Part shown: piece after piece, positions 635 through 21,185 of the stretch
Layout: each line of letters starts with the position of its first letter
Numbering within the stretch: position 1 is the first letter of the stretch
Assembly (NCBI RefSeq): GCF_029633865.1
Contig: NC_079211.1
Coordinates: forward strand, 62,501 to 126,500
Direction: 5' to 3'
DNA length: 64,000 nt
Source: Lampris incognitus
Lineage: Eukaryota; Chordata; Actinopteri; Lampriformes; Lampridae
The notes under the pieces: model-generated
Database searches by the model: none
The model's input: the letters and a program-made list of their open reading frames with translations, nothing else
Told to the model about the DNA's origin: nothing
Position numbers and translations under genes: made by a program

Positions 635-727
635 TTACGCCGGCCCCTGTTTGCTCATGTCCATGCATCCGCCAACAACCATCTTTATCCATTGGGGGGA
701 CTAGTTCAGACACCGTAGGCCAGTGCA

Positions 728-733
728 AATAAA
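728..733 (+). promoter_or_regulatory. AATAAA poly(A) signal in PLE 3' UTR
   Basis: AATAAA lies in the motif GTGCAAATAAAGTC just before the telomere-like tail. The full copy has it too (6652-6657). In the tandem cassettes the same place reads AATGAA or ACATGAA, so the signal is present only in the copies attached to the fuller element. Confidence 0.45.
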
Positions 734-780
734 GTCAATTACCGACACCCCAAACCCCAACCCTAACCCAACCCTAATCC

Positions 781-1140
781 AGCCAGTGCCACGGATCTGG
801 ACTCCCCCCTGCAACTCAGATAATCCGGAAACCCTACGTAAAAACGACCTCCACATTCTCTCACCATATCAGATTCCTTCTGTATTCACCCTCTTTCCCC
901 ACTCCATTCCACCCCACACACACACACACACACACGGAAAAAATAAATAAAAAAATAAAAAAATAATAAAATAAAAAAAGTGGATTGGTGGTGGTTGTGA
1001 TGTTTGATTGGTGGGTGGCGCTCCGTTTGCTGCCGCCTGCGGGACTCGATCGCGGCCCGCTGGGCTGACGGGCGGGCGCGCTACCGCCACACCACATGGG
1101 CGTGGGAGTTTGCTCACACACATAGCTACACATAGTTACT
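781..1140. other. Inter-element segment: (CA)n, A-rich run, tRNA-like block
   Basis: No gene is supported. The stretch holds a (CA)n run at about 914-936, an A/T-rich run of AAATAAA type at about 937-978, and the tRNA-like block described separately. It may be the untranscribed 5' end of the downstream PLE or older flanking DNA; nothing here fixes the boundary. Confidence 0.5.
1033..1101 (-). other. tRNA-like Pol III unit (relic or SINE head)
   Basis: On the minus strand, TGGTGTGGCGG (complement of 1084-1094) fits the tRNA A-box with about one mismatch. GATCGAGTCC (complement of about 1042-1051) fits the B-box, at tRNA-like spacing. T-runs that could terminate Pol III follow on the same strand from about 978 downward. 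I could not fold a clean cloverleaf: the anticodon arm has a good GC stem but an oversized loop. It is most likely a tRNA-derived repeat, not a working tRNA. Confidence 0.35.
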
Positions 1141-1167
1141 TTGCCCCTCTGTCCTTCCGGGATCAAT

Positions 1168-1320
1168 GACCAATCAGGGGGCTGCGTCTCCTGCCCCGTC
1201 GAGATTCAAAATACGAAGTGGCGTATGGGGTTGGCGCAGCGGTGTTGCCGCCGGGCTGATTGGACGCGTTTGTCCCGGAAGGGGGAGGGGGCTCCCGCGT
1301 CCACACACACTATATATACA
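1168..1320 (+). promoter_or_regulatory. Putative Pol II promoter of PLE (CCAAT boxes, TATA box)
   Basis: A direct CCAAT box (ACCAATCAG, about 1169-1177), an inverted CCAAT (CTGATTGG, about 1255-1262) and a TATA box (CTATATATACA, about 1309-1319) stand in order. A start 25-30 bases after the TATA box would fall near 1340-1350, directly before the hammerhead-like motif at 1351. Function is inferred from layout only. Confidence 0.5.
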
Positions 1321-1350
1321 CCTTGGCTTGTCCTTTCTGCCTGTTCACCT

Positions 1351-1378
1351 CTGATGAAGCAACGTCTAGTTGCGAAAC
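1351..1378 (+). ncRNA. Hammerhead-ribozyme-like motif of PLE
   Basis: CTGATGA (1351-1357) is followed by a hairpin, GCAAC (1359-1363) paired with GTTGC (1369-1373), and then GAAAC (1374-1378). This is the order of the hammerhead core: CUGANGA, stem II, GAAA. One extra A precedes stem II, and stem III would be very short, so cleavage activity is doubtful. Hammerhead motifs are known from PLEs of many eukaryotes. A related sequence at 9788-9814 keeps the pattern with a different stem, which supports a conserved RNA fold. Confidence 0.5.
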
Positions 1379-1515
1379 GTTGGGTGTTTGAACTCCAATG
1401 CGCTCGGGTATCGCTTCTTTTTTTTTAAAAAAATTTTCCGATTAGAGTTGTGCTCCCACTTCTTTGATCGGATGATTGGCTCTCGCAACATTATTAATTT
1501 CAAAACGGCGGTGGG

Positions 1516-1834
1516 GGACTCTTTTCCTCGGCCGCTTGTCCGGCCCGGGGCGTGCTGGGCCGCTCGCCCGGAGGCGTCCGCGTGGTCGGGGACTTCGGCG
1601 GGGGCCGGGGGACGTGGTTTCGGCGGCGGCCGGGCCCGGGGCGGCGACCGGGACACCGGGCCGACGCGTGCTGAGGACTCTTTTCCGCGGCCGCTCGCCC
1701 GGCCCGGGGCGTGCTGGGCCGCTCGCCCGGAGGCGTCCGCGCGGTCGGAGACTTCGTCGAAGGCCGGGGGACGTGGTTTCGACGGCGGCCGGGCCCGGGG
1801 CGGCGGCCGGGGCGCCGGGCCGACGCGTGCTGAG
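1516..1834 (+). repeat. Two tandem 159-bp GC-rich units in PLE leader
   Basis: The segment beginning GGACTCTTTTCC at 1516 is repeated from 1675, giving two units of 159 bp (53 codons). They are extremely GC- and CpG-rich and contain GGGCCGCTCGCCCGGAGG in both copies. Because 159 is a multiple of three, the duplication keeps the reading frame open through to ORF1. Either this encodes a duplicated Gly/Arg/Ala-rich N-terminus, or it is a structured untranslated leader. Confidence 0.75.
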
Positions 1835-1873
1835 GTAAGAGCCCGCCACCAGTCTAATTCTTCTTTTTTTCAG
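1835..1873 (+). other. Candidate 39-nt intron in PLE ORF1 leader
   Basis: A strong donor (GAG|GTAAGA at 1835) and a strong acceptor (TTCTTTTTTTCAG| ending 1873) enclose 39 bases. That is below the usual vertebrate minimum, and 39 is a multiple of three, so the frame stays open spliced or not. PLEs are known to keep introns, which makes this plausible. Alternatively the donor or acceptor pairs with a site elsewhere. Confidence 0.35.
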
Positions 1874-1903
1874 GAGCGGACCGACGCATTGGAGTTAACA
1901 GGT

Positions 1904-3913
1904 ATGAACGGACAGCCAACACACAGAGCACACGCACGCGACTTCCATCCACGACCACACATGTCCATCGCCACACACCCTACACATAGATCACGACATG
2001 CGCGCGTACACGCGCACACGCACACACCGCCTCACATGCGGACCGGATACCCTTGCACACGCACACAATCTCGGCAGCCACTCACCTACAGACCCATCCA
2101 GCCGTCGACCCCAGAAACTAGACACAACAGCAAACGGTATTATAGGCTCATTCAGGCCACATACCACAAACGTGTCATAGATGAGGCCATAGCCACGAAA
2201 ACATTTCCCCCCGGTATGATGAGACAAGTTAACAAACTCACGGCCTTCATCAAACCGGCAGCTCCCACACAACACACACACAACAGAGTGGCAGAAAACA
2301 CCATCACCTGGATGGAAAACAACATGGCCATTTTACAGGAACATTACCGGGCCACTATGGCAACCTTCACTGACACACCCAAAGATGCCTTAGCCCTCCG
2401 GATTGCTATTGGTTGGGCTAGGAAGAAATATGGCCAAAAACTCAAACAGGACACCATTCACACAGTAGAACACATCTTAGACATTCACCCACACAATCGC
2501 ACACCAGCCGACCCACAACCCTGCCCCCCCCCTCCTCCTCCTCCCCCTCCCCGCGCTCATCACACACTCACCGCAAATACACAATCTCGGCCACTCATCC
2601 AAGGGGGGACAGAAGAAGACTTTCCACCCCTACCGAGGGCAAGGGCCCCATACAAACTATATTCACTTTACCTAGGTCCACGCACTTCCCTCTCCGAAGA
2701 AATCGCCCGCCCCACATCAATTGCCCCAACGAACCGACACTCACCACTCACACAGACGACGGCAACCTGCCAAACAGCAGACCAGCCAAAAAAGTCGTCA
2801 CAGCCCTCCTCAGTCCCACTACCCATCACAACACACACAACACCCCAAGTAACCCCAACACCCACCACCCAACCCCGTAGCGGACCGCTAAAACCACTGA
2901 CCGCCCTGCGGGACAGCCACGCTCAGGTCCATGCGCCACTCCGGGCAGTAACACCACCACACACCACCCCGGACTTTGCGACCACCACCTTGGACGGACC
3001 CCTCAGGGAGTCTAACGTGGCCGTAACGACGGTGGACTCAATTCTTCCCCTCTCTCTATCCCCCACAGATCTCCCCGGCGGGCGGACCGGCTCGGTTGGG
3101 CAGCAAACCTCTCCCAGCCATCTCAAAAAAACGCAGGGTGAAAAGGGTGAAACAACCATGATGAGCGGGACGCAGAAGGTCGATATGGCCGCAACAAGAG
3201 CCCATTCTGAACCCTCCACCCAACAAGATGGTGGGGCCTTGCTGCCTGGCCACCCCGGTCCGCGGGCCGCGACACCAGAAATAGACAATCGGCTCCCCAC
3301 ACACCCGCCATCCCCTACCACACCGTTTGCCCGGGTGCTGGGCACACCCCCCCTCCGCCAATCTCCATTCAGACCCACCTGCCACATAGCGAGAGCGCAC
3401 CTTAAAATAACAGCCTGGCATTTTAAACCCCGTAGACCCATCATTATCCTTGGTGATTCAAACATCAATAGGATCCCCCCTCACCACAACCCCGAAATAC
3501 AACTCGACAGTTATCCGGGAGCCACGCTGTATACTTTTCTGAAAGTATGCGAAAAGGCACCGATTTACCCGGACACCAAAATCGCGGTATTCTCAATTGG
3601 CCTCAACAACAGGGACCGGGACGCAAAACAAACCTCCATAAAACAGCTCAGAGCACTTTATAGACAGGCCAAAATCACCTTCCCAAATGCAGACATTTAC
3701 TTCCCCATTATAAATTACTCCTCACGGCTCCCGCCAACCCACCGGGACAATTTGAAAATCATTAACAACACCATAGCCACACACCTCCCCTTCCTGGCAG
3801 AAATCCCACATGACACCTTCACCACGGAAAAAGATAACCTCCACTGGACAGCGTCCACAGCCCGCAATATCTTCCAACATTGGTGCAAACAATTAAATTT
3901 AACGTCGGCCTGA
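1904..3913 (+). CDS. PLE ORF1 with C-terminal SGNH/GDSL hydrolase-like domain
   Basis: From the first in-frame ATG at 1904 (TATGAACGG) to the stop at 3913 the protein is about 669 residues. The same frame is open back to 1370 through the GC-rich repeats, so an upstream non-ATG or spliced start cannot be excluded. Residues 1-500 are low-complexity, rich in Thr, Pro and His, with a Pro run near 2525-2550. From about residue 505 the sequence becomes SGNH-like: IILGDSN (block I, Ser in GDS at 3458-3460), SIGLNNRD (block III position, Asn), and DNLHWT (Asp and His of the C-terminal DxxH, 3833-3844). SGNH hydrolases cleave esters; ORF1 esterase domains are known in CR1/L2 LINEs and in giant telomeric PLE assemblies of rotifers. 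The role in retrotransposition is unknown. The decayed relative at 19190-21185 has the same domain directly before its RT. Confidence 0.75.
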   Translation: MNGQPTHRAHARDFHPRPHMSIATHPTHRSRHARVHAHTHTPPHMRTGYPCTRTQSRQPLTYRPIQPSTPETRHNSKRYYRLIQATYHKRVIDEAIATKTFPPGMMRQVNKLTAFIKPAAPTQHTHNRVAENTITWMENNMAILQEHYRATMATFTDTPKDALALRIAIGWARKKYGQKLKQDTIHTVEHILDIHPHNRTPADPQPCPPPPPPPPPRAHHTLTANTQSRPLIQGGTEEDFPPLPRARAPYKLYSLYLGPRTSLSEEIARPTSIAPTNRHSPLTQTTATCQTADQPKKSSQPSSVPLPITTHTTPQVTPTPTTQPRSGPLKPLTALRDSHAQVHAPLRAVTPPHTTPDFATTTLDGPLRESNVAVTTVDSILPLSLSPTDLPGGRTGSVGQQTSPSHLKKTQGEKGETTMMSGTQKVDMAATRAHSEPSTQQDGGALLPGHPGPRAATPEIDNRLPTHPPSPTTPFARVLGTPPLRQSPFRPTCHIARAHLKITAWHFKPRRPIIILGDSNINRIPPHHNPEIQLDSYPGATLYTFLKVCEKAPIYPDTKIAVFSIGLNNRDRDAKQTSIKQLRALYRQAKITFPNADIYFPIINYSSRLPPTHRDNLKIINNTIATHLPFLAEIPHDTFTTEKDNLHWTASTARNIFQHWCKQLNLTSA

Positions 3914-6558
3914 AGCCTAACCGGGCACGGGACGAGCACACCCCAGAACCACGACCGGACACACACCGCAATCGGGACCTGGTCTGGAATTCAGAATCAC
4001 AAATCTGTAATCTGGCAACATTGTTCACTCCCACCACACCACAACGCCATCTCCTGGAGAGGGGGCTCACCTTCATCCCACGCCCCACCAACTTTGACTG
4101 GGAGCAACTTCAAAGGGACCTACACAATTACCACAGACGATTAAAACTCAAAAATTATTTCCATCCCGACTCCCAACAACAACGACAACACAAACAATTC
4201 AGCCACCCGTCCACCTGGGAACCGGACAACACCACCCTAGACCCGGAAACACAACACCTCATCCTCCAAGATAGACTGACTCTACGCCGCTATCGTCCCC
4301 CGGCGGATGTCCCAGACAACCTACCGGGGGCCGAACGCGCAGCGCTCAAACAACTGGTCCATCACCCCAACATCATTATCAAACCGGCAGACAAAGGCAG
4401 CAAAATTGTAATCATGGATAGACAACAATACTCACTGGAGGCGAACAGACAGCTAAACAACACCACCTACTATAGACCCCTGGACGATACAATACAACCC
4501 CAGACCCAAATTCAAATCCGGACCATTATTCAATCGCTACATAACAAAAAATACATTTCGGCCAAACAAAAACACTATCTATTCGGACCACAGAACCCAC
4601 GACCCCGCTATTTTTATCTCCTACCAAAAATCCACAAAGAGCCACAAACTTGGACCGTTCCCTTTGAGGTTCCTCCCGGCCGCCCTATAGTCTCGGACTG
4701 CAATAGCGCCACCTACCACATTAGCCAATACATCGACCACTTCTTGGGCCCTCTCTCCACCCGACACCCCAGCTACATTAAAGACACATACCACTTCCTG
4801 GAAATCATCCGCTCCATGGCCGTCCCCGCCAACGCGTATTTATTCACAATTGACGTTGATAGCCTGTATACCAATATTAACACACAACTGGGTTTACAAG
4901 TCATCTCATCCGTTTTTTCTCGCAACCCGGACGACACACGACCGGATGCGGAAATCCTTCAACTCCTAGAGTTGTGCCTGAAAAACAACGACTTCCTATT
5001 CAATAATCAATATTATCTCCAGGTGACCGGGACGGCCATGGGCCAGAGATTCGCACCATCCTATGCCAACCTCTACATGAGTGAATGGGAGCGAGAGGCC
5101 TTGGACAAATGCCCCCTAAAACCCACCCTCTACCTTCGGTTTTTAGACGACATTTTCGGAATCTGGCCACACGACCTGGCACAGTTCTCAGACTTTATCC
5201 ACATTCTCAATAATCATCACCCCTCCATCAAAATCAAACACACCATAGAATCGGAACAAATCAACTTCCTGGACACCACAGTCTATTTCAGGCCACTCAA
5301 CTCCACACAGAAAACACTCCAGACCAAAGTTTATTTCAAACCAACGGACACACACTCACTATTACACAAATATAGTTACCATCCAAGACACACGTTCAAA
5401 GGCATAGTCAAATCACAACTCATCCGTTTCCATCGCATTTGCTCAGACATCTCAGATTTCCACTCAGCCACCCACATTCTGTTCAAAAGCCTCCGTAAAC
5501 GAGGCTACTCCAAACGCTTCCTCCGCACCATTAAAAGCAACACCTTGGCTCCTCCCGTTCCCATTCGCTCATCACCCCCCCATCGGCCCCAGCCCCCGCC
5601 AACCCAGGTTCCCAGATCCGAGCTGCCTCCACCCTCTTCCCCCTACCTGAACCAAGGCCGGGATCCTCTAAACCCCAGCCCTGACACCCCCTCCCACCCT
5701 TATCCTGATCTTAACCACCCCCAACCCCATCCTTATCCTAACCATAACCCCAACCCTAACCATAACCCTAACCATAACCCCAACCCTAACCATAACCCCA
5801 ACCCTAATCCTAACCCTAAACTTAACCATGACCCTACCCCCGGTCCTTATCCTGAACCTAACTCTTCCCCCTTCCCCAATGAAGGCCTGCATCCCAACCC
5901 CCCTGTAGCGAGAGGCAGCTCGGGCCCACAACACACCGCCACAATTAGTTCACACCTCAACCCTACCCCGCCGCGGCACTTCATACCTCTCATCTCCACC
6001 TTTTCACACAAAATAACCGGTCTCCACCATGCCATAAAGAACAGTTTCTCCAGTCTACAGTCCCAGCACCCGGCTTTCCACAACAATAAAATCATATCCG
6101 CTTACAGAAAAAACAAGAGCCTCCACAACATACTGGTCAAATCACAATTCTCCGATCACAGACCCACACCCCAATTACAATATGCACACCACTACAGAAA
6201 CAGAAAATACATCCACAACCCACACACCAACACAGCTATGCCCACCTTGGGCTCATTCTCCGTCAACACCACAAACGTCGTTTACATCATCACATGCACC
6301 CTCTGCGACAAACACTACATTGGGGAAACCCGACACTCGATACATACACGACTCTCACAACACATACACAACATCATGGTAGGCAAACTTCGTACCCCCC
6401 TAATCACACACTTCCAAACGCACCCCTCCTCCCACCTCATCATCTCTGGCCTTGAAAACAACGATCACTGGACCGTGGGGCAGAGGAAGAGAGCGGAAAA
6501 ACAGTGGATCCACAAGCTCCGGACGACCGCACCGGGAGGCCTCAATGATGACGTTTAA
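3880..6558 (+). CDS. PLE ORF2: reverse transcriptase plus GIY-YIG endonuclease
   Basis: About 890 residues, open from before 3880 to the stop at 6558. There is no ATG until the middle of the RT, so expression probably depends on ORF1. Domains in order: an N-terminal region with IKPADKGSKIVIMDRQQY (about residue 167-184) and YLLPKIHK, both PLE hallmarks; an RT core with TIDVDSLYTNI (catalytic Asp, near 4850), GTAMGQRFAPSYANLYM and LRFLDDIFGIW (catalytic Asp pair, near 5145); a Pro/Asn-rich linker (about 5550-5900) partly encoded by telomere-like repeats; the PLE connector (ISAYRKNKSLHNIL); and a GIY-YIG endonuclease (VVYIITCTLC, HYIGETRHSIHTRL). Reverse transcription primed at an endonuclease nick is the family mechanism. 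The frame is uninterrupted. Confidence 0.92.
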   Translation: MVQTIKFNVGLKPNRARDEHTPEPRPDTHRNRDLVWNSESQICNLATLFTPTTPQRHLLERGLTFIPRPTNFDWEQLQRDLHNYHRRLKLKNYFHPDSQQQRQHKQFSHPSTWEPDNTTLDPETQHLILQDRLTLRRYRPPADVPDNLPGAERAALKQLVHHPNIIIKPADKGSKIVIMDRQQYSLEANRQLNNTTYYRPLDDTIQPQTQIQIRTIIQSLHNKKYISAKQKHYLFGPQNPRPRYFYLLPKIHKEPQTWTVPFEVPPGRPIVSDCNSATYHISQYIDHFLGPLSTRHPSYIKDTYHFLEIIRSMAVPANAYLFTIDVDSLYTNINTQLGLQVISSVFSRNPDDTRPDAEILQLLELCLKNNDFLFNNQYYLQVTGTAMGQRFAPSYANLYMSEWEREALDKCPLKPTLYLRFLDDIFGIWPHDLAQFSDFIHILNNHHPSIKIKHTIESEQINFLDTTVYFRPLNSTQKTLQTKVYFKPTDTHSLLHKYSYHPRHTFKGIVKSQLIRFHRICSDISDFHSATHILFKSLRKRGYSKRFLRTIKSNTLAPPVPIRSSPPHRPQPPPTQVPRSELPPPSSPYLNQGRDPLNPSPDTPSHPYPDLNHPQPHPYPNHNPNPNHNPNHNPNPNHNPNPNPNPKLNHDPTPGPYPEPNSSPFPNEGLHPNPPVARGSSGPQHTATISSHLNPTPPRHFIPLISTFSHKITGLHHAIKNSFSSLQSQHPAFHNNKIISAYRKNKSLHNILVKSQFSDHRPTPQLQYAHHYRNRKYIHNPHTNTAMPTLGSFSVNTTNVVYIITCTLCDKHYIGETRHSIHTRLSQHIHNIMVGKLRTPLITHFQTHPSSHLIISGLENNDHWTVGQRKRAEKQWIHKLRTTAPGGLNDDV
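3895..3901 (+). promoter_or_regulatory. Candidate -1 ribosomal frameshift site (AAATTTA)
   Basis: In the ORF1 frame the sequence reads TTA AAT TTA ACG, so A-AAT-TTA fits the X-XXY-YYZ slippery rule. ORF1 stops 10 nt later at 3911-3913. ORF2 is open in exactly the -1 frame, reads KFNVGLKP from the shifted codons, and has no ATG near its start. I did not identify a convincing downstream pseudoknot by eye. Confidence 0.5.
5695..5850 (+). repeat. Telomere-like repeats inside the ORF2 coding linker
   Basis: Between RT and endonuclease the coding DNA is a run of AACCCT, AACCAT and AACCCC hexamers (densest at about 5740-5830). It translates as an Asn-Pro/Asn-His chain such as NPNHNPNPN. The same hexamers make up the 3' tail, so one element carries two telomere-like tracts about 0.9 kb apart. 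The cassettes downstream begin at or near this internal tract. Confidence 0.85.
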
Positions 6559-6673
6559 TTACGCCGGCCCCTGTTTGCTCATGTCCATGCATCCGCCAAC
6601 AACCATCTTTATCCATTGGGGGGACTAGTTCAGACACCGTAGGCCAGTGCAAATAAAGTCAATTACCGACACC

Positions 6674-6757
6674 CCAAACCCCAACCCTAACCCAACCCTA
6701 ACCCCTAACCCTAACCCCTAACCCTAACCCTAAACCCTAAACCCTAACCCTAACCCT
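6674..6757 (+). repeat. CCCTAA-type tail of PLE copy B
   Basis: This is a mixture of CCCTAA, CCCCTAA and CCCTAAA units, the C-strand form of the vertebrate telomere repeat with variants. It follows the PLE 3' UTR and stops exactly where a copy truncated inside the endonuclease gene begins. Confidence 0.9.
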
Positions 6758-7245
6758 GCACACCACTACAGAAACAGAAAATACATCCACAACCCACACA
6801 CCAACACAGCTATGCCCACCTTGGGCTCATTCTCCGTCAACACCACAAACGTCGTTTACATCATCACATGCACCCTCTGCGACAAACACTACATTGGGGA
6901 AACCCGACACTCGATACATACACGACTCTCACAACACATACACAACATCATGGTAGGCAAACTTCGTACCCCCCTAATCACACACTTCCAAACGCACCCC
7001 TCCTCCCACCTCATCATCTCTGGCCTTGAAAACAACGATCACTGGACCGTAGGGCAGAGGAAGAGAGCTGAAAAACAGTGGATCCACAAGCTCCGGACGA
7101 CCGCACCGGGAGGCCTCAATGATGACGTTTAATTACGCCGGCCCCTGTTTGCTCATGTCCATGCATCCGCCAACAACCATCTTTATCCATTGGGGGGACT
7201 AGTTCAGACACCGTAGGCCAGTGCAAATGAAGTCAATTACCGACA
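6758..7245 (+). mobile_element. PLE copy C, 5'-truncated
   Basis: This copy starts abruptly with GCACACCACTACAG, matching 6183 onward of copy B, directly after the telomere-like tract. It contains the GIY-YIG core, the 3' UTR and the TAGGCCAGTGC end motif. The 5' truncation joined to telomere-like repeats is the pattern expected if a shortened copy at a chromosome end was capped and later built upon. Confidence 0.85.
6812..7132 (+). CDS. GIY-YIG endonuclease fragment (copy C)
   Basis: An open frame of 106 residues from ATG at 6812 gives the complete GIY-YIG core and C-terminus, identical in protein to the end of copy B ORF2. The RT and connector are absent, so this is a remnant whose frame survives because the copy is young. 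No promoter of its own is visible. Confidence 0.75.
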   Translation: MPTLGSFSVNTTNVVYIITCTLCDKHYIGETRHSIHTRLSQHIHNIMVGKLRTPLITHFQTHPSSHLIISGLENNDHWTVGQRKRAEKQWIHKLRTTAPGGLNDDV

Positions 7246-7352
7246 CCCCAAACCCTAACCCAACCCTAACCATGACCCTAACCCTAACCATGACCCTAAC
7301 CATAACCCTAACCATAACCCTAACCCTAACCATGACTCTAACCCTAACCATG
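7246..7352 (+). repeat. Telomere-like tract between copies C and D
   Basis: About 107 bp of AACCCT units mixed with AACCATGACCCT and AACCATAACCCT variants. The left part resembles a 3' tail (CCCAACCCTAACC). The right part matches the coding linker of ORF2, where ACCATGACCCTACCCCCGG continues into copy D. The junction thus lies inside homologous repeats. Confidence 0.85.
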
Positions 7353-8192
7353 ACCCTACCCCCGGTCCTTATCCTGAACCTAACTCTTCCCCCTTCCCCA
7401 ATGACGGTCTGTATCCCAACCCCCCTGTAGCGAGAGGCAGCTCGGGCCCACAACACACCGCCACAATTAGCTCACACCTCAACCATACCCCGCCGCGGCA
7501 CTTCATACCGCTCATCTCCACCTTCTCACACAAAATAACCGGTCTCCACCATGCCATAAAGAACAATTTCTCCAGTTTACAGTCCCAGCACCCGGCTTTC
7601 CACAACAACAACATCATATCCGCTTACAGAAAAAACAAGAGCCTCCACAACATACTGGTCAAATCCCAATTCTCCGATCACAGACCCACACCCCAATTAC
7701 AATATGCACACCACTACAGAAACAGAAAATACATCCACAACCCACACACCAATACAGCTATGCCCACCTTGGGCTCATTCTCCGTCAACACCACAAACGT
7801 CGTTTACATCATCACATGCACCCTCTGCGATAAACACTACATTGGGGAAACCCGACACTCCATACATACACGACTCTCACAACACATACACAACATCAGG
7901 GAAGGCAAACTTCGTACCCCCCTAATCACACACTTCCAAACGCACTCCTCCTCCCACCTCATCATCTCTGGCCTTGAAACGACGATCACTGGACCGTGGG
8001 GCAGAGGAAGAGAGCTGAAAAACAGTGGATCCACAAGCTCCGGACGACCGCACCGGGAGGCCTCAATGATGATGGTTAATTACGCCGGCCCCTGTTTGCT
8101 CATGTCCATGCATCCGCCAGCAACCATCTTTATCCATTGGGGGGACTAGTTCAGACACCGTAGGCCAGTGCACATGAAGTCAATTACCGACA
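7353..8192 (+). mobile_element. PLE endonuclease cassette, copy D
   Basis: This begins in the linker (CCTACCCCCGGTCCTTATCC, equal to about 5831 in copy B) and runs through the connector, endonuclease, 3' UTR and tail motif. The endonuclease frame is disturbed near its C-terminal third by a small length change. It is more diverged from B than copies A and C, and shares variants with copy E (INIREGK instead of INIMVGK), so D and E form a sub-lineage. Confidence 0.85.
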
Positions 8193-8248
8193 CCCCAAAC
8201 CCCAACCCTAACCCAACCCTAACCATGACCCTAACCCTAACCATGACC
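8193..8248 (+). repeat. Telomere-like tract between copies D and E
   Basis: A short run of CCCTAA, CCCAAC and AACCATGACC units joins the tail of D to the linker-derived start of E. Its right end again matches the ORF2 linker. Confidence 0.8.
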
Positions 8249-9088
8249 CTACCCCCGGTCCTTATCCTGAACCTAACTCTTCCCCCTTCCCGAATGAAGG
8301 TCTGTATCCCAACCCCCCTGTAGCGAGAGGCAGCTCGGGCCCACAACACACCGCCACAATTAGTTCACACCTCAACCATACCCCGCCGCGGCACTTCATA
8401 CCTCTCATCTCCACCTTTTCACACAAAATAACCGGTCTCCACCATGCCATAAAGAACAATTTCTCCAGTTTACAGTCCCAGCACCCGGCTTTCCACAACA
8501 ATAAAATCATATCCGCTTACAGAAAAAACAAGAGCCTCCACAACATACTGGTCAAATCCCAATTCTCCGATCACAGACCCACACCCCAATTACAATATGC
8601 ACACCACTACAGAAACAGAAAATACATCCACAACCCACACACCAACACAGCTATGCCCACCTTGGGCTCATTCTCCGTCAACACCACAAACGTCGTTTAC
8701 ATCATCACATGCACCCTCTGCGATAAACACTACATTGGGGAAACCCGACACTCTATACATACACGACTCTCACAACACATACACAACATCAGGGAAGGCA
8801 AACTTCGTACCCCCCTAATCGCACACTTCCAAACGCACCCCTCCTCCCACCTCATCATCTCTGGCCTTGAAAACAACGATCACTGGACCGTGGGGCAGAG
8901 GAAGAGAGCTGAAAAACAGTGGATCCACAAGCTCCGGACGACCGCACCGGGAGGCCTCAATGATGATGGTTAATTACGCCGGCCCCTGTTTGCTCATGTC
9001 CATGCATCCGCCAACAACCATCTTTATCCATTGGGGGGACTAGTTCAGACACCGTAGGCCAGTGCACATGAAGTCAATTACCGACACC
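8249..9088 (+). mobile_element. PLE endonuclease cassette, copy E
   Basis: This has the same start point and content as copy D; the endonuclease start codons of D and E are 893 bp apart, so the two form a tandem pair. The connector, GIY-YIG core, 3' UTR and TAGGCCAGTGCAC end motif are all present. The endonuclease ATG frame (8653-8973) is open for 106 residues. Confidence 0.85.
8653..8973 (+). CDS. GIY-YIG endonuclease fragment (copy E)
   Basis: An open frame of 106 residues with VVYIITCTLC, HYIGETRHSIHTRL and the C-terminal GLENNDHWTVGQRKRAEKQW segment. A few substitutions separate it from copy B (INIREGK, LIAHFQTH, ending NDDG). No RT is attached. Confidence 0.7.
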   Translation: MPTLGSFSVNTTNVVYIITCTLCDKHYIGETRHSIHTRLSQHIHNIREGKLRTPLIAHFQTHPSSHLIISGLENNDHWTVGQRKRAEKQWIHKLRTTAPGGLNDDG

Positions 9089-9400
9089 CCAAACCCCAAC
9101 CCTAACCCTAACCCTAACCCAACCCTAACCCTAACCCTGATTGGTCTCGCAGTCTTCTCCGACCACGGCTTGCCCATGTTACCCCCTCAGACCTTTAGGC
9201 CAGTGCACCTGAGTATCAATGATAACCCAAAGCCCGAACTCGTACCCAAACCTAACCCTAACCCCCTAACCCACGGCTTGCCCATGTTACCCCCTCAGAC
9301 CTTTAGGCCAGCGCACCTGAGTATCAATGATAACCCTAAGCCCGAACCTAACCCTAACCCCTAACCCTAACCCTTTTTGCCCATGTTCACTGTCCAGCTG
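9089..9400 (+). repeat. Telomere-like tracts with two related PLE tail units
   Basis: After the tail of copy E come two copies of a 3' end from a sister subfamily: CACGGCTTGCCCATGTTACC, TTAGGCCAGTGCACCTGAG, TATCAATGATAACCC, then CCTAACCC-type repeats (about 9163-9270 and 9271-9375). Only about 80-100 bp of unique sequence is present in each, so these are extremely 5'-truncated tails in tandem. Confidence 0.75.
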
Positions 9401-9830
9401 TCCACATTCGCCCATACTCACCATCCGGCATTAGTTCCCCCCCCCCTTTTTTTTTTTATTTGTATTTTTTCCTCTTTCAGTTTCTTCCAGTTTAGGATAA
9501 AAAACACATTGTTTCCCCCCCCCCTCCTCTTTCCTTTGGCGTCCCTCGCTGCTGCGGATATTGGCAGGGGGGGACGCCACGATTTGCGGAGGAAGTGCCC
9601 GCCTACCGGAAGTGGTGTCCATTTTATAGTTTGAGCCGGAGCTCCGATCGCTCTTTTCGATGGGGTCCGGCCGATAACTATGTCACCCGCTGTTCATTGA
9701 GTTGGACTAATGTTGGCTATTTTTTGGACGGACCATTATATTATTTTTTGATTTTTACCCCCACTCACGAAAAGGTCTAGCCCACGCCTGAAGAAGGTAA
9801 GAAGATACCGAAACTTCGCGACATTGGGCT
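9401..9830 (+). mobile_element. PLE subfamily 2, 5' region only
   Basis: C-, T- and pyrimidine-rich runs (9437-9535) precede a unique segment ending in a hammerhead-like motif at 9788-9814. By analogy with copy B this is the 5' leader of a sister PLE. No ORF1 follows; the sequence passes directly to tail units, so the body is missing. Confidence 0.5.
9788..9814 (+). ncRNA. Hammerhead-like motif, PLE subfamily 2
   Basis: CTGAAGA (9788-9794), one A, stem GGTA (9796-9799) paired with TACC (9806-9809), then GAAAC (9810-9814). The layout matches 1351-1378, including the extra A before the stem, but the stem bases differ and still pair. The core has A in place of U at the variable position of CUGANGA, which hammerheads tolerate. 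Confidence 0.45.
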
Positions 9831-10195
9831 ACATTATAGACAGCCCCCCCTGCCCATGGACGATCTAATTCGACCGGTCTTAAGGTCTAGCCCGACCTGC
9901 CCTGCTCATATTCACTGCCCAGCCCCTGATGTCTAACCCGACCAATCTCACGGTCTACTCCGACCACGGCTTGCCCATACTACCCGCTCAGACCTTTAGG
10001 CTAGTGCACTGGAGTATCAATGATAACCCAAAGCCTAAACCCGAACCTAACCCCTAACCCTGATGTCTAACCCGACCAATCTCACGGTCTACTCCAACCA
10101 CGGCTTGCCCATACTACCCCCTCAGACCTTTAGGCCAGTGCACCTGAGTATCAATGATAACCCAAAGCCCAAACCCGAACCCTAACCCAGAAAAA
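9831..10195 (+). repeat. Tandem tails of PLE subfamily 2
   Basis: At least two further tail units (about 9945-10060 and 10080-10190) carry GACCAATCTCACGGTCTACTC, CACGGCTTGCCCATACTACC, TTAGGCCAGTGCAC and TATCAATGATAACCC, each ending in AACCCTAACC-type repeats. A short unmatched stretch precedes them at 9831-9940. Confidence 0.7.
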
Positions 10196-11295
10196 GCAAG
10201 AGCCTTCAACCATTACTCACTAGATCCCAATTCGCTGACCATAGACCCACACCCCAACTACACTATGGCCACCACTACAAAAACAGAAAATTCAACCAGA
10301 ATTCACATCTTTCCCCACACTAGGCTCTTTTTCCATCACCGCCACCACCAACACTCCGTCACAAACATGACATAGGAGAAACCAAGCACTCCATTCACAC
10401 TAGCTTATCACAAGACCTCTACAATATCAGGCAAGGTCGACTCAACACCACCCGGGTCAAACATTTCCAACTTCACCCCCCCACTCACCTCACAGTTTCC
10501 GGTCTAGAAAACAACGACTGCTGGGCCGTTGAGCAGAGAAAGTGAGCGGAGAGAATTTGGATCCACAGGCTTGGGACCACCGTACCAGGAGATCTTAATG
10601 ATGATTGAAAGATGGCCGACCCACTCCTAGTGTGGTTGTCCCTGGATCTACAATCTGGCTGCACTGATCCCCCTTTCTTAAAGATCTCAGTCTTGTCACG
10701 AGATGACAACCCCATATTTATTTATTCATCGATTTACCCTTTTAATTCATTGTTATTTATTGTGTTTTATTTATGAAATTTTAGGCAATTTTATTAGACT
10801 GGTTTGAGATAACTTATTTTTCGGTTTTTTATTAGAGCACTTAATCGCATGGCTTTGAGTTATACTTTATTATTATTCCTATTTATTATTGTTATGTTTT
10901 ACTATGCTAGTGAGTCTTCTAATAGCACTTTTTTATTTTTAGCACTTATAATTTAACACTTAGCAGTTACTCCTCCTCCAGCTTCTAGATTTTACCTCAG
11001 TATTTAACTTACAAACTCAACTTAACCCGGGGGACCTTCTCGTCCAGGGATCCGTGTAGCCTCCCCTTTTAACCTAACTCTATTAGACCACTCCTTCCTC
11101 TGCTCTTGTACTCTGTCTGGGAATTTAACCTTCGTCCCTGGCAGGAGGGACCGCAGCCTTCTCCATCACACCATCCCTCAGATCAGGGGGCCAGTGCTAC
11201 ATAAATATAATGTATAACCCACAACCCCAACCCTTACCCAAAACCCGACCCTAAGCCTGACCCTAACCCCAACCCCTAAACCTGCCCAATCCCTC
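10196..11295 (+). mobile_element. PLE subfamily 2, decayed endonuclease and 3' UTR
   Basis: The sequence from AGAAAAAGCAAGAGCC aligns with the PLE connector and endonuclease (counterparts of KNKSLHNI, GLENND, EQRK). The reading frame is degraded by several changes. An A/T-rich 3' UTR of about 600 bp follows, then GGGCCAGTGC (about 11189) and a degenerate CCCTAA-like tail (11215-11290). The longer 3' UTR separates this subfamily from copies A-E. Confidence 0.65.
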
Positions 11296-13810: not shown

Positions 13811-14077
13811 GAGGAATCTTCACTGGGATCGAAAAGACAACACTAATTTATCCCAGGAAGAAATTGAAGCTCTTAAGCAACTTCAAAACAACAAACACAT
13901 TGTTATTAAACCCGCAGATAAAGGTAGTGGGGCGGTTATTTTGGATAGGGAATAATATGTGTCGCAGACAGAATTCAGTAACACCAGACATTACACCAAA
14001 CTTAGTAGCCCCATTTTCCCATACACCATACCAGTAGTACACAAAATATTGGAGGTTTGTTTAATACTAAAAAGAAC

Positions 14078-14108
<31 letters not shown>

Positions 14109-14126
14109 CATACATACATACATACA

Positions 14127-14161
<35 letters not shown>

Positions 14162-14460
14162 TTGAAGGGTAGTGACAATCCCCGCCCTAAAAGATTTTAT
14201 TTATTACCAAGATCCAAAATCCTGGAGTACACCCTATGAAATTCCTCCCGGTTACACAATTGTTTGACAGCAACAGTGATACTTAACAGCAGAATTTACT
14301 GAATGTTAACTTAACCCCATTTCTAACAAACATCCTAGCTACATCCAAGATACATAAGATTTCTTGGACAAAATGAAAAATCTTTCAATCCCAACATGCA
14401 ACCTGCTTTTCAAAGCCCTGAGGGACTATAAAAATAGAGAAACATAAGATAGGAGAGGAA
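13811..14460 (+). mobile_element. PLE reverse transcriptase fragment, third subfamily
   Basis: A degraded frame reads LSQEEIEALKQLQNNKHIVIKPADKGSGAVILDRE (split here by eye), the PLE N-terminal RT motif. After a microsatellite comes DNPRPKRFYLLPRSKI, the LPKIHK region. Residues differ from copy B (GSGAVI versus GSKIVI), so it is another PLE lineage. It is 5'- and 3'-truncated. Confidence 0.65.
14079..14160. repeat. (TA)n / (CATA)n microsatellite
   Basis: (TA)n at about 14079-14101 is followed by (CATA)n to about 14160. It sits inside the PLE RT fragment and splits its two recognisable motifs. Confidence 0.95.
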
Positions 14461-19189: not shown

Positions 19190-21185
19190 GGCCCTCTACA
19201 ACAACAAATAGAGCTAAATGAAATTAAAGACAACGGTCTGATGACAGACTTCGGCTTAAAGACGGCGAATTTTCATAAACTGCTCACAGCAAACCATCTC
19301 TCGAAAACTGCATCGGCCTCACAGCAGCCCCCAACCAACCGGTTAGTCTGGCCAACAATTTGACTACCACCATTAAACCAGCAGTCCTGAACGAAGACAC
19401 GGAGAAAGATTGAGGACATTGCAAAAAAACTGGGCTGCCACAACCATGAGAATAGTACAGCAACACTACACAAACTTGATAAAAGCAGAAATGGATAAAT
19501 TCACCAACCTATCCACACGGGACTAGGATGGCCCGTTCCAGGTAACCTCATCCTCGGCAAGGAAAGGCCTGGGCTGCCACTTGCAGGAGGAGACGATTGA
19601 CGACAGACAATATTCATCTCCAAATTGACAGACTTCGAGGCTGAGGACAGCCAATCGAAGCCACCAAACGCCCAAGTCAATCACCAATGGCGGGGCCATC
19701 TGGTACAACGAAGCTTGTGGTCACCCAAGTCCATGTGCCGCCGAATCGCATCACGGGGGCAGAAAAACGCAAACAACCTCCCCCACGCAAACAATGAGTG
19801 ATCGCCCACAGCCGTCTACGGCCCCACAGCTGCAACTGAGGACCAGCGAGGCCGCAGAGATCAGGGGAGACTGGTCAGCTGAAAAGCAGGACTATACTCC
19901 CCACACTACCACCGCAGGCACCATCCCCAAAAGAACAGAGGCAGGGAAGGAACCACACTGGAATACCCACCCAACAGACTGATCCATATGGGAATCCAGA
20001 CCAAATAAACACTCCTACAGGACGAGGCGGGACCGTCCCAACAACAACTCACCAAGCCTGACTGGTCTGACCCTCACGCCAAATCACACAACAGCTAAAC
20101 AGAGCTGTCTGGAAGTGGACGCCGGACGAAAAATAAACCTGACCACTATACCCCAGACTATCTGGCAAACAAACAAAACAAATGCCAAGACTAGAGGTTT
20201 AACATAAGCACAAGCAAAACTATACTGATAATGGGAGACTCAAATGCTGCCAAATTCCCACCTTTCGACTTGGCTAACCTACAAATTGACAGTTATCCGG
20301 GAGCCACATTCAGACATGCGGAGAGCACAACCAACAAAGCCACCCACTTCAACACAATGGAAGAGGTGATTGTGTCCTTTAGGCGAAGTAATAGATCACA
20401 AAAACTGAAAAAGACCACCATCAAGCAGCTTCAGGGGGCATCAGAGCAGCAAAAAGCCAATTCCCACGGGCCAATGTGCAGATACCCATGATTAACTACT
20501 CCACAAGCCTCCTGCTGGGGGAACAAACAAACCTACAAAAACTGAATGAATATATCAAAGGCAACTCCAACCATGCCACCACTAAATAGGACTCTCTTCG
20601 AGACTTATAGAAGGACAATGTGCACTGGACTCCAGAGACGGCAATATAATTACTGACAAAACTGGTTGGAGTATTTAAATTAAAAGTCCCCACAAGCCTG
20701 CCGATACAGGACGGGAATGAAAATGTAGTACTAGCGAAAAACTTTCTCCTAACTTCCCCACAATTAACCCTACTGAACAGAGGAATAAAATTCATTCCAA
20801 CTAAGTAACAAAAAGCATAATGGAACAGATCAGAAGGGACATTCAACAATGCCACAGAAGACTGAAACTAGCAGTGTATTACGAGGACAGCACAGATGCG
20901 GAGCCCCTGCCATTCACTCCCAAGTCGGAATAGACTCCTAACAGCACGCTGCTGGCGGAAATCGCGACCCTCATTGTGGCCAATTTGAATTATTTCAACA
21001 AATTCTTCCGCATACAGCATGTAGTAACACCTAATAGTACAAAAGACAGAGCCTTATCAGAACTCCTCGATAACAGACAGATCATTAAACCGGCCGACAA
21101 GGAGTGCAATTGTCATGGCCAGAGAACAGTATCTGTGGAAAGCATAAAGACGACAATTACTACCTAAAACTGAGGAAACCCGATC
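19190..21185 (+). mobile_element. Decayed PLE: SGNH ORF1 followed by RT N-terminus
   Basis: A Pro/Thr-rich ORF1-like region (19190-20220) leads to TILIMGDSN (20226-20250), QIDSYPGATF (compare QLDSYPGATL in copy B), KTTIKQLQ and DNVHWTPETA (about 20612-20640), the SGNH blocks in the same order as in copy B. ORF2-like sequence follows: RGIKFIPTK, RRDIQQCHRRLKL, and IIKPADKE (about 21083). Several frameshifts and stops show it is dead. The body ends where an L2-like LINE tail begins. This independent copy shows that the SGNH-then-RT order is a property of the lineage. Confidence 0.7.

Follow-up and report, generated by a model that had tools for sequence, protein, structure and literature searches.

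A probably telomere-targeted, endonuclease-bearing Penelope-like retrotransposon in oriented arrays near chromosome ends of Lampris incognitus

A stretch of 64,000 nucleotides of the Lampris incognitus genome (assembly GCF_029633865.1, contig NC_079211.1, here C1, positions 62501–126500; the whole stretch is called the window) begins 62 kb into a contig of 155 Mb and contains an open-framed Penelope-like element (PLE) at window positions 1344–6701. The element comprises an SGNH-esterase open reading frame (ORF1), a PLE reverse transcriptase (RT), a GIY-YIG endonuclease (EN) and a CCCTAA tail. Its family is referred to as fam1, a diverged sister family as fam2, and a third element, which lacks ORFs, as NA. 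Fam1 and fam2 form head-to-tail arrays, interrupted by telomeric repeats, near many chromosome ends, and those of their non-tandem 3′ ends that were read stop in a shared telomere-complementary loop, beyond which TTAGGG-type repeats or the telomere-like linker of the element itself follow in phase. The tail probably has a mechanistic meaning, and a telomerase-RNA-like template in an EN-bearing PLE is the best reading of these data. We consider it likely that fam1 is a telomere-targeted, EN-bearing Penelope-like retrotransposon.

The location of the copies was analysed on the 21 large contigs (30–155 Mb; 1.416 Gb) of the 1.48-Gb, 537-contig assembly, with “terminal” defined as within 150 kb of a large-contig end, a fraction amounting to 0.44% of these contigs. 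The best 100 of 4,093 RT, 150 of 477 SGNH and 40 of 455 3′ untranslated region (3′UTR) candidates were considered, so the counts are lower bounds that favour young copies; the three sets overlap partly, representing the same copies, and 31 RT and 63 SGNH matches on smaller contigs were excluded. Terminal positions were found for 66 of the 69 fam1 RT matches on large contigs, for 83 of the 87 SGNH matches and for 36 of the 40 3′UTR matches. All listed terminal matches of the three kinds lie on the plus strand at left ends and on the minus strand at right ends (for the RT, 38 left-plus, 28 right-minus and none of the opposite polarity), the 3′ end of the element thus facing the chromosome interior. 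Together, fam1 and fam2 occupy at least 26 of the 42 large-contig ends and 20 of the 21 large contigs, and fam1 forms long runs with a spacing of 5.83–5.99 kb. The telomere link suspected in the original prediction, which had seen the window alone, is therefore stronger than could be inferred from it, with oriented arrays near many chromosome ends.

The right ends of C3, C9 and C12 consist of TTAGGG-type telomere. At the right end of C3, the outermost copy listed is 5′-truncated in ORF1 and joined in phase to telomere repeats; these are pure over the final 601 bases of the contig as well as in two samples of 120 bases. Frames longer than 1,500 residues were also considered as possible ORFs fused to kilobases of telomere, an idea discarded after nine such places had been read: one, this same C3 end, is telomere, six run into N gaps and two show element sequence alone in the stretch read. 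Counting overlapping matches, perfect (CCCTAA)8 occurs 6,733 times on one strand and 25,976 times on the other, and the control gave zero. Exons of TERT were found at C24:21.80 Mb, the best PDB matches of one exon being 4lmo and 4o26, which we take to be pufferfish and medaka proteins; the arrays therefore coexist with a telomerase gene. A purely technical origin of the terminal bias, in which assemblies break in repeats and array families consequently appear at contig ends, would account for the N gaps within arrays and for the right ends of C1, C2, C11 and C24, which stop inside copies. It is very improbable, as no listed terminal match breaks the polarity rule, the right ends of C3, C9 and C12 are of TTAGGG type, telomere tracts lie between the copies, and PLE matches are distal to a common subtelomeric relic (see below) on all 21 ends having both.

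An exact genome-wide count gave 373 fam1 tails, 235 of which are followed by the next unit, 115 by ...CCCTAACC and 23 by other sequence. The class of 115 comprises telomeric or linker joins; its interpretation as telomere joins only was rejected after the tail at C1:70679 (window 8179) was found to join the linker repeat. Among 30 uncut tails, 10 are tandem, 14 run into telomere-like repeats, all of them in phase, and six join a linker repeat (one of the six assigned by eye); these loci were chosen by score or by hand and are thus a non-random sample, from which a locus inside the window and one tail that is cut off were dropped. The right arm of the stem described below is retained in none of the 20 non-tandem tails, which end inside the loop, as expected if reverse transcription starts there. 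Telomere tracts adjoin 5′-truncated PLEs at several different truncation points.

The proposed RT-initiation and telomere-template loop belongs to a putative stem-loop that spans the tandem junction (window 700–806, plus strand, as are all window features below unless indicated), with arms at approximately 703–721 and 788–803 and the loop CAAACCCCAACCCTAACCCAACCCTAA at 751–777. Outside the coding regions, fam1 and fam2 match most strongly across the tail and the start of the next unit (90 nt, 91 columns, E 3e-13). Further non-coding matches below E 0.001 are A/T-rich runs or the tail itself, and weaker ones cover 19 nt at the GGTAAGAGCCC region (E 0.002) and 37 nt at a hammerhead-like motif (E 0.087). 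In the folds of both fam1 and fam2, this stem encloses an open loop that contains AACCCTAACCCAACCC (mean pairing probability: fam1, 0.05; fam2, 0.005), and NA forms the same stem with some pairing within the loop. In the alignment of the three sequences, standard pairs fill 38 of the 39 pair cells, and both sides have changed in 3 of the 13 pairs, compared with 20–36% paired and no two-sided changes in controls with slid partners.

Copies located inside chromosomes provide a second view of the junctions. The copy at C2:7.98 Mb starts at the equivalent of window position 1344 and has telomere-like repeats on both sides, and for the copies at C5:55.86 Mb and C5:7.79 Mb the 3′ side adjoins telomere-like DNA. 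Internal 3′ ends therefore lie in interstitial CCCTAA-like tracts at all three loci whose outer 3′ end was read, a count that omits C2:45.16 Mb, C2:89.04 Mb and C14:201 kb. These insertions bear on whether the element could be a passive passenger, that is, a PLE of the ordinary kind that became trapped in subtelomeres, was dispersed by segmental duplication and unequal exchange, and captured its telomere-like tails from neighbouring telomere DNA. The regular spacing of the long runs, the common relic on 25 large-contig ends and the tandem state of 235 of the 373 tails would all fit such an origin, which nevertheless appears quite unlikely: three diverged elements share a similar tail and stem with compensated pairs, the 5′ truncation points beside telomere-like tracts vary, and insertions in telomere-like DNA are found at three internal loci.

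The role of the EN is a separate matter, which the terminal copies alone do not settle. Attachment at chromosome ends only, in which fam1 would prime from free telomere ends like Athena-type PLEs and make no use of its GIY-YIG domain in telomeric insertion, is consistent with the truncated copy capped by telomere on C3 and with the alternation of 5′-truncated copies and telomere tracts, which fits described EN-deficient PLEs (PMC3846280, in part). We regard it as a doubtful explanation of fam1, in which the EN motifs are kept and the ratio of nonsynonymous to synonymous substitutions (dN/dS) between fam1 and fam2 is about 0.12, a rough value given that dS exceeds 1 and is saturated. The C2:7.98 Mb copy, inside a chromosome and with telomere-like repeats on both sides, also argues against it, even if insertion at a double-strand break could still explain that locus. 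The conservation of the EN together with this two-sided internal insertion favours an active EN.

The following mechanism for telomere targeting is suggested by the junctions. A transcript starting near 1344 would read through unit n into unit n+1, so that the junction stem-loop might expose ...CCCAACCCUAACCCAACCCUAA... as a template. The loop would pair with a TTAGGG 3′ end, either that of a chromosome terminus or that of a telomeric or interstitial strand nicked by the GIY-YIG EN. Reverse transcription would start within the loop, and the right stem arm would therefore never be copied. Telomerase may then recap the 5′-truncated end of the complementary DNA, giving rise to alternating CCCTAA and PLE sequence, while tandem units, formed by read-through copying or unequal exchange, would restore the whole stem-loop and the promoter. 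ORF2 would be translated as an ORF1–ORF2 fusion by −1 frameshifting, and the 1.15-kb NA element, devoid of ORFs and carrying the same loop, could be carried in trans. That these parts make up a second self-propagating telomerase-like system, with a loop-displayed template, whole-element extension of chromosome ends beside TERT and a loop-sharing non-autonomous partner, is possible but is advanced here tentatively.

Several observations weigh against telomere targeting or limit its support. Pairing and priming at the loop are deduced from the junctions, and the tandem tails, 235 of 373, may have been multiplied by unequal exchange. Pair shuffles reach the stem result in 34 of 500 trials and the pair types in 120 of 500, with three sequences only. 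Support for the stem in the individual sequences is mixed: the fold of fam1 has a z-score of −2.0 or −1.5 depending on the slice, with 7 and 15, respectively, of 200 shuffles equally good, against z −5.7 (0 of 200) for fam2 and z −0.85 (37 of 200) for NA. Arm-duplex shuffles were as good in 118, 80 and 144 of 20,000 trials for fam1, fam2 and NA, respectively, and random pairs of element windows in 343 and 527 of 20,000 for fam1 and fam2. The saturation of dS makes the selection estimates coarse. Regarding location, only the best-scored candidates of each kind were counted, contig ends favour repeats (four right ends stop inside copies), and the 15 large left ends that were read over 10 kb comprise five with fam1, three with NA, two that are all N and five with neither. 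Off-terminal copies occur at C2:45.16 Mb, C2:89.04 Mb, C14:201 kb and C22:30.60–30.62 Mb. The copies at C2:242–261 kb are reversed, and with a margin of 300 kb one RT and three SGNH matches break the polarity rule. The subtelomeric relic at 226 kb on C2 is turned together with these copies, and the reversed order at C2:226–261 kb may reflect either a scaffold inversion or an old end.

The repeat unit of fam1 spans approximately 778–6701 and the apparent transcript start is near 1344; position 1141, where the original prediction had begun the element, is therefore not a boundary. The unit opens with an upstream or promoter region (781–1343) containing TATATATA at 1311–1318. The likely transcript start at 1344, about 26 bp past the TATA box, corresponds to the position at which the internal copy at C2:7.98 Mb begins. 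It is followed by a hammerhead-ribozyme-like core, CTGATGA...GCGAAACGTT (1351–1381), recognized by eye at the motif level; Rfam gave no call for it, and the fold of 1340–1420 is no better than shuffles (z −0.48, 61 of 200). Hammerhead-like motifs were seen by eye in fam2 and NA as well. The 5′ leader contains two copies of a GC-rich 159-bp repeat (1516–1835) and an intron-like segment, GTAAGA...TTTTTTTCAG (1835–1873), whose 39 nt are short for a vertebrate intron. At the opposite end, an AATAAA signal (6652–6657), also present in the tail of fam2, lies just 5′ of the tail (6673–6757). The tail, as rich in CCCTAA as had been noticed at first, is telomere-like and element-encoded to about 6701 and continues as in-phase telomeric CCCTAA/CCCCTAA repeats.

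ORF1 (1904–3913, 669 residues, likely start at ATG 1904, stop at 3911–3913) carries the SGNH (GDSL) esterase domain at its C-terminal end (3398–3910). The motifs are GDSN at residue 517 (nt 3452–3463), SYPGA at 536, GLNN at 566 (3599–3610) and DNLHW at 644 (3833–3847), so that the G-D-S, G, N and D-x-x-H blocks stand in the correct order, as the original prediction had stated for GDSN, GLNN and DNLHW. In the proposed hidden Markov model check, the match to Pfam Lipase_GDSL_2 is below the cut-off (17.9 against 32.9 bits, E 0.0045), and a PDB sequence search gave no match for the SGNH domain, nor for ORF2. A fold search of the PDB with the AlphaFold2 model, itself of low confidence (mean predicted local distance difference test score 50), did support the assignment: 48 of the 50 matches listed are esterases, lipases, platelet-activating-factor (PAF) acetylhydrolases or acyltransferases, the other two being designed scaffolds, with a best E-value of 1e-4. 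The esterase of zebrafish ZfL2-1 ORF1 (4c1b) ranks seventh (E 5e-4), with a template modelling (TM) score of just 0.39–0.40 and a root mean square deviation of 20. By block order and by the fold of this low-confidence model, ORF1 qualifies as an SGNH/GDSL hydrolase.

ORF2 is an open frame of 892 residues (3880–6558) containing the RT, a telomere-like linker and the GIY-YIG endonuclease, in agreement with the first assignment of PLE RT and GIY-YIG motifs. The GIY-YIG domain (6280–6549; VYIITCTLCDKHYIGET, TRLSQH, AEKQWI and GGLND) is above the Pfam cut-off (25.4 against 22.6 bits). RVT_1 is under its own (19.8 against 29.6 bits), and the PLE-type RT motifs were identified by eye. Between RT and EN, an internal telomere-like repeat (5737–5840) encodes PNPNHNPNP, telomere-like DNA serving here as coding sequence. 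The first methionine of ORF2 does not occur before residue 179. A slippery heptamer, A_AAT_TTA, is located in the ORF1 frame at 3895–3901, from which a −1 shift enters ORF2 (KFNVGLKP...). This heptamer is kept in frame in fam2, immediately 5′ of the ORF1 stop, and a −1 frameshift producing an ORF1–ORF2 fusion is therefore likely.

The sister family fam2, found at the right end of C11, shares with fam1 a protein identity of 67.5% in the SGNH domain, 77% in the RT and 74% in the EN. Comparison of the two gave dN 0.21 and dS 2.11 for ORF1 and dN 0.16 and dS 1.40 for the EN region; the dN/dS is about 0.12 in both EN and RT and 0.10 in SGNH (overall 0.10–0.13). Eighty-seven of the 150 SGNH matches listed correspond to fam2 at 85% identity or more; 36 are on large contigs, 31 of them terminal and correctly oriented and five elsewhere. 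NA, likely a non-autonomous partner, consists of tandemly repeated units of about 1,145 bp, lacks any ORF longer than 102 residues and has a hammerhead-like motif and a tail similar to that of fam1. It was found near four left ends: at the start of three contigs (C1, C5 and C11) and about 48 kb into C26. The common relic belongs to a subtelomeric block shared by 25 large-contig ends, each of which has a single decayed SGNH-PLE, 85–100% alike across chromosomes and in a single orientation. In the window it corresponds to 20198–21101, where the decayed SGNH ORF1 of a distant SGNH-bearing PLE is followed, in unchanged gene order, by the N-terminal part of its ORF2. A match at C22:30.6 Mb, 38–40% identical to the relic, was first taken for a separate non-telomeric family and then discarded as such, since it reads as a broken fam1-like copy, interrupted by inserted DNA with transposase-like frames (labelled by eye). 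The C22:30.60–30.62 Mb region is an interstitial island of mixed fam1 and fam2 sequence, which could mark a former chromosome end.

Within the window, the fam1 element sits in a head-to-tail array. The 3′ end of the neighbouring distal copy (1–777; ORF2 linker and EN, 3′UTR and telomere-like tail) is joined directly to the next unit and is 99.6% identical over 780 nt to the 3′ end of the element itself. Downstream, 5′-truncated copies occupy 6757–9138: an EN part with tail (6757–7246) and two EN-only units (7247–8193 and 8194–9138), in each of which the preceding tail joins the linker repeat of the unit. Older NA copies with tails follow at 9163–10188 (73–82% identical to the NA unit by blastn, with matches to the stem-loop model), and then an older fam2-like relic of EN, 3′UTR and tail at 10188–11283 (67% protein identity to the fam2 EN; model match at 11170–11271). 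An RT fragment of a further old PLE, with roughly 30% identity to ORF2, is found at 13845–14411. The region 25927–58130 contains, on the minus strand, 14 U3 snoRNA-like matches over the Rfam gathering score, interspersed with blocks of a 180–182-bp satellite (26.8–62.6 kb).

Among known elements, HeT-A and TART of Drosophila and TRAS and SART of the silkworm are of the long interspersed nuclear element (LINE) type, oriented or targeted at chromosome ends and accompanied by non-autonomous partners, and HeT-A and TART replace telomerase. In contrast, the fam1 genome has TERT and TTAGGG ends, and the PLE-type motifs and C-terminal GIY-YIG of the predicted protein speak against a LINE-type RT. Coprina is a telomeric, EN-deficient PLE. 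Fam1 resembles Athena and Coprina in its PLE-type RT, its location at chromosome ends, its inward 3′ end and the reverse-complement telomeric repeats at that end, but differs from these EN-deficient elements in a GIY-YIG domain that is present and conserved (dN/dS about 0.12) and in the presence of TERT in its genome. The reverse transcriptases of PLEs and telomerase have a common ancestry, and EN-deficient telomeric PLEs prime at chromosome termini and carry telomeric repeats on a truncated 5′ end (PMC3846280, in part). The same source defines Neptune by a Cys-rich domain between RT and EN; the RT–EN linker of ORF2 has no cysteine, which therefore argues against Neptune. Like Penelope/Poseidon-type PLEs, fam1 has an RT followed by a C-terminal GIY-YIG in one ORF and tandem or partial-tandem copies; their single ORF is replaced by two, possibly joined by a −1 frameshift. 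The PNPNHNPNP linker is comparable to the N-rich inserts of Adineta Penelope ORFs (PMC3846280, in part). Scans of viral contigs with ORF2 and the SGNH domain yielded no relatives. An EN-bearing PLE with both an SGNH ORF1 and a telomere-like tail had been expected to be unusual; the combination is real, but SGNH esterases had already been found in PLEs of RepBase (PMC3905857, in part).

Bdelloid Terminons encode a GDSL esterase, form head-to-tail arrays and carry a reverse-complement telomeric 3′ stretch pairing with the G overhang; they reach 40 kb, are called EN-deficient, with GIY-YIG-like ENs as accessory ORFs, and have a hammerhead directly before the 3′ telomeric stretch (PMC6431247, in part). 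Fam1 shares the esterase, the telomere-complementary 3′ stretch and the arrays, whereas its unit measures 5.9 kb, its EN is fused to the RT, the stem around its tail is different, and its hammerhead-like motif lies at the 5′ end, about 5.3 kb upstream of the tail. In PAc, a Poseidon PLE of Anolis that bears an EN, occurs in tandem copies and has a hammerhead, the RT was shown in vitro to initiate at an internal site within an AC-rich stem loop; the DNA that PAc cleaves is AT-rich and lacks homology to this start site (PMC11167929). Both elements are EN-bearing and tandem, but the proposed start site of fam1 matches its target while that of PAc does not; by analogy, the parts of fam1 fit PAc-style internal initiation with a target-matching loop. 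In the lake sturgeon, a degraded GIY-YIG PLE bounded by telomere-like repeats was attributed by its authors to random insertion (PMC12031113, in part). It resembles fam1 in these boundaries, the available text reporting neither SGNH nor a stem-loop, and telomere targeting of the fam1 kind may explain such sturgeon copies. In the open full-text literature surveyed, available in part and with RepBase and subscription papers outside its scope, neither an EN-bearing PLE targeted to vertebrate telomeres nor a PLE in which compensated pairs hold a telomere template displayed in a loop was reported, and the telomeric PLEs described there are EN-deficient. The element offers a way to recognize interstitial telomere islands, and it opens to direct tests the question of how telomerase could have arisen from a mobile RT or given rise to one. 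If fam1 does constitute a second telomerase-like system, it would represent a living intermediate between PLE retrotransposons and telomerase.

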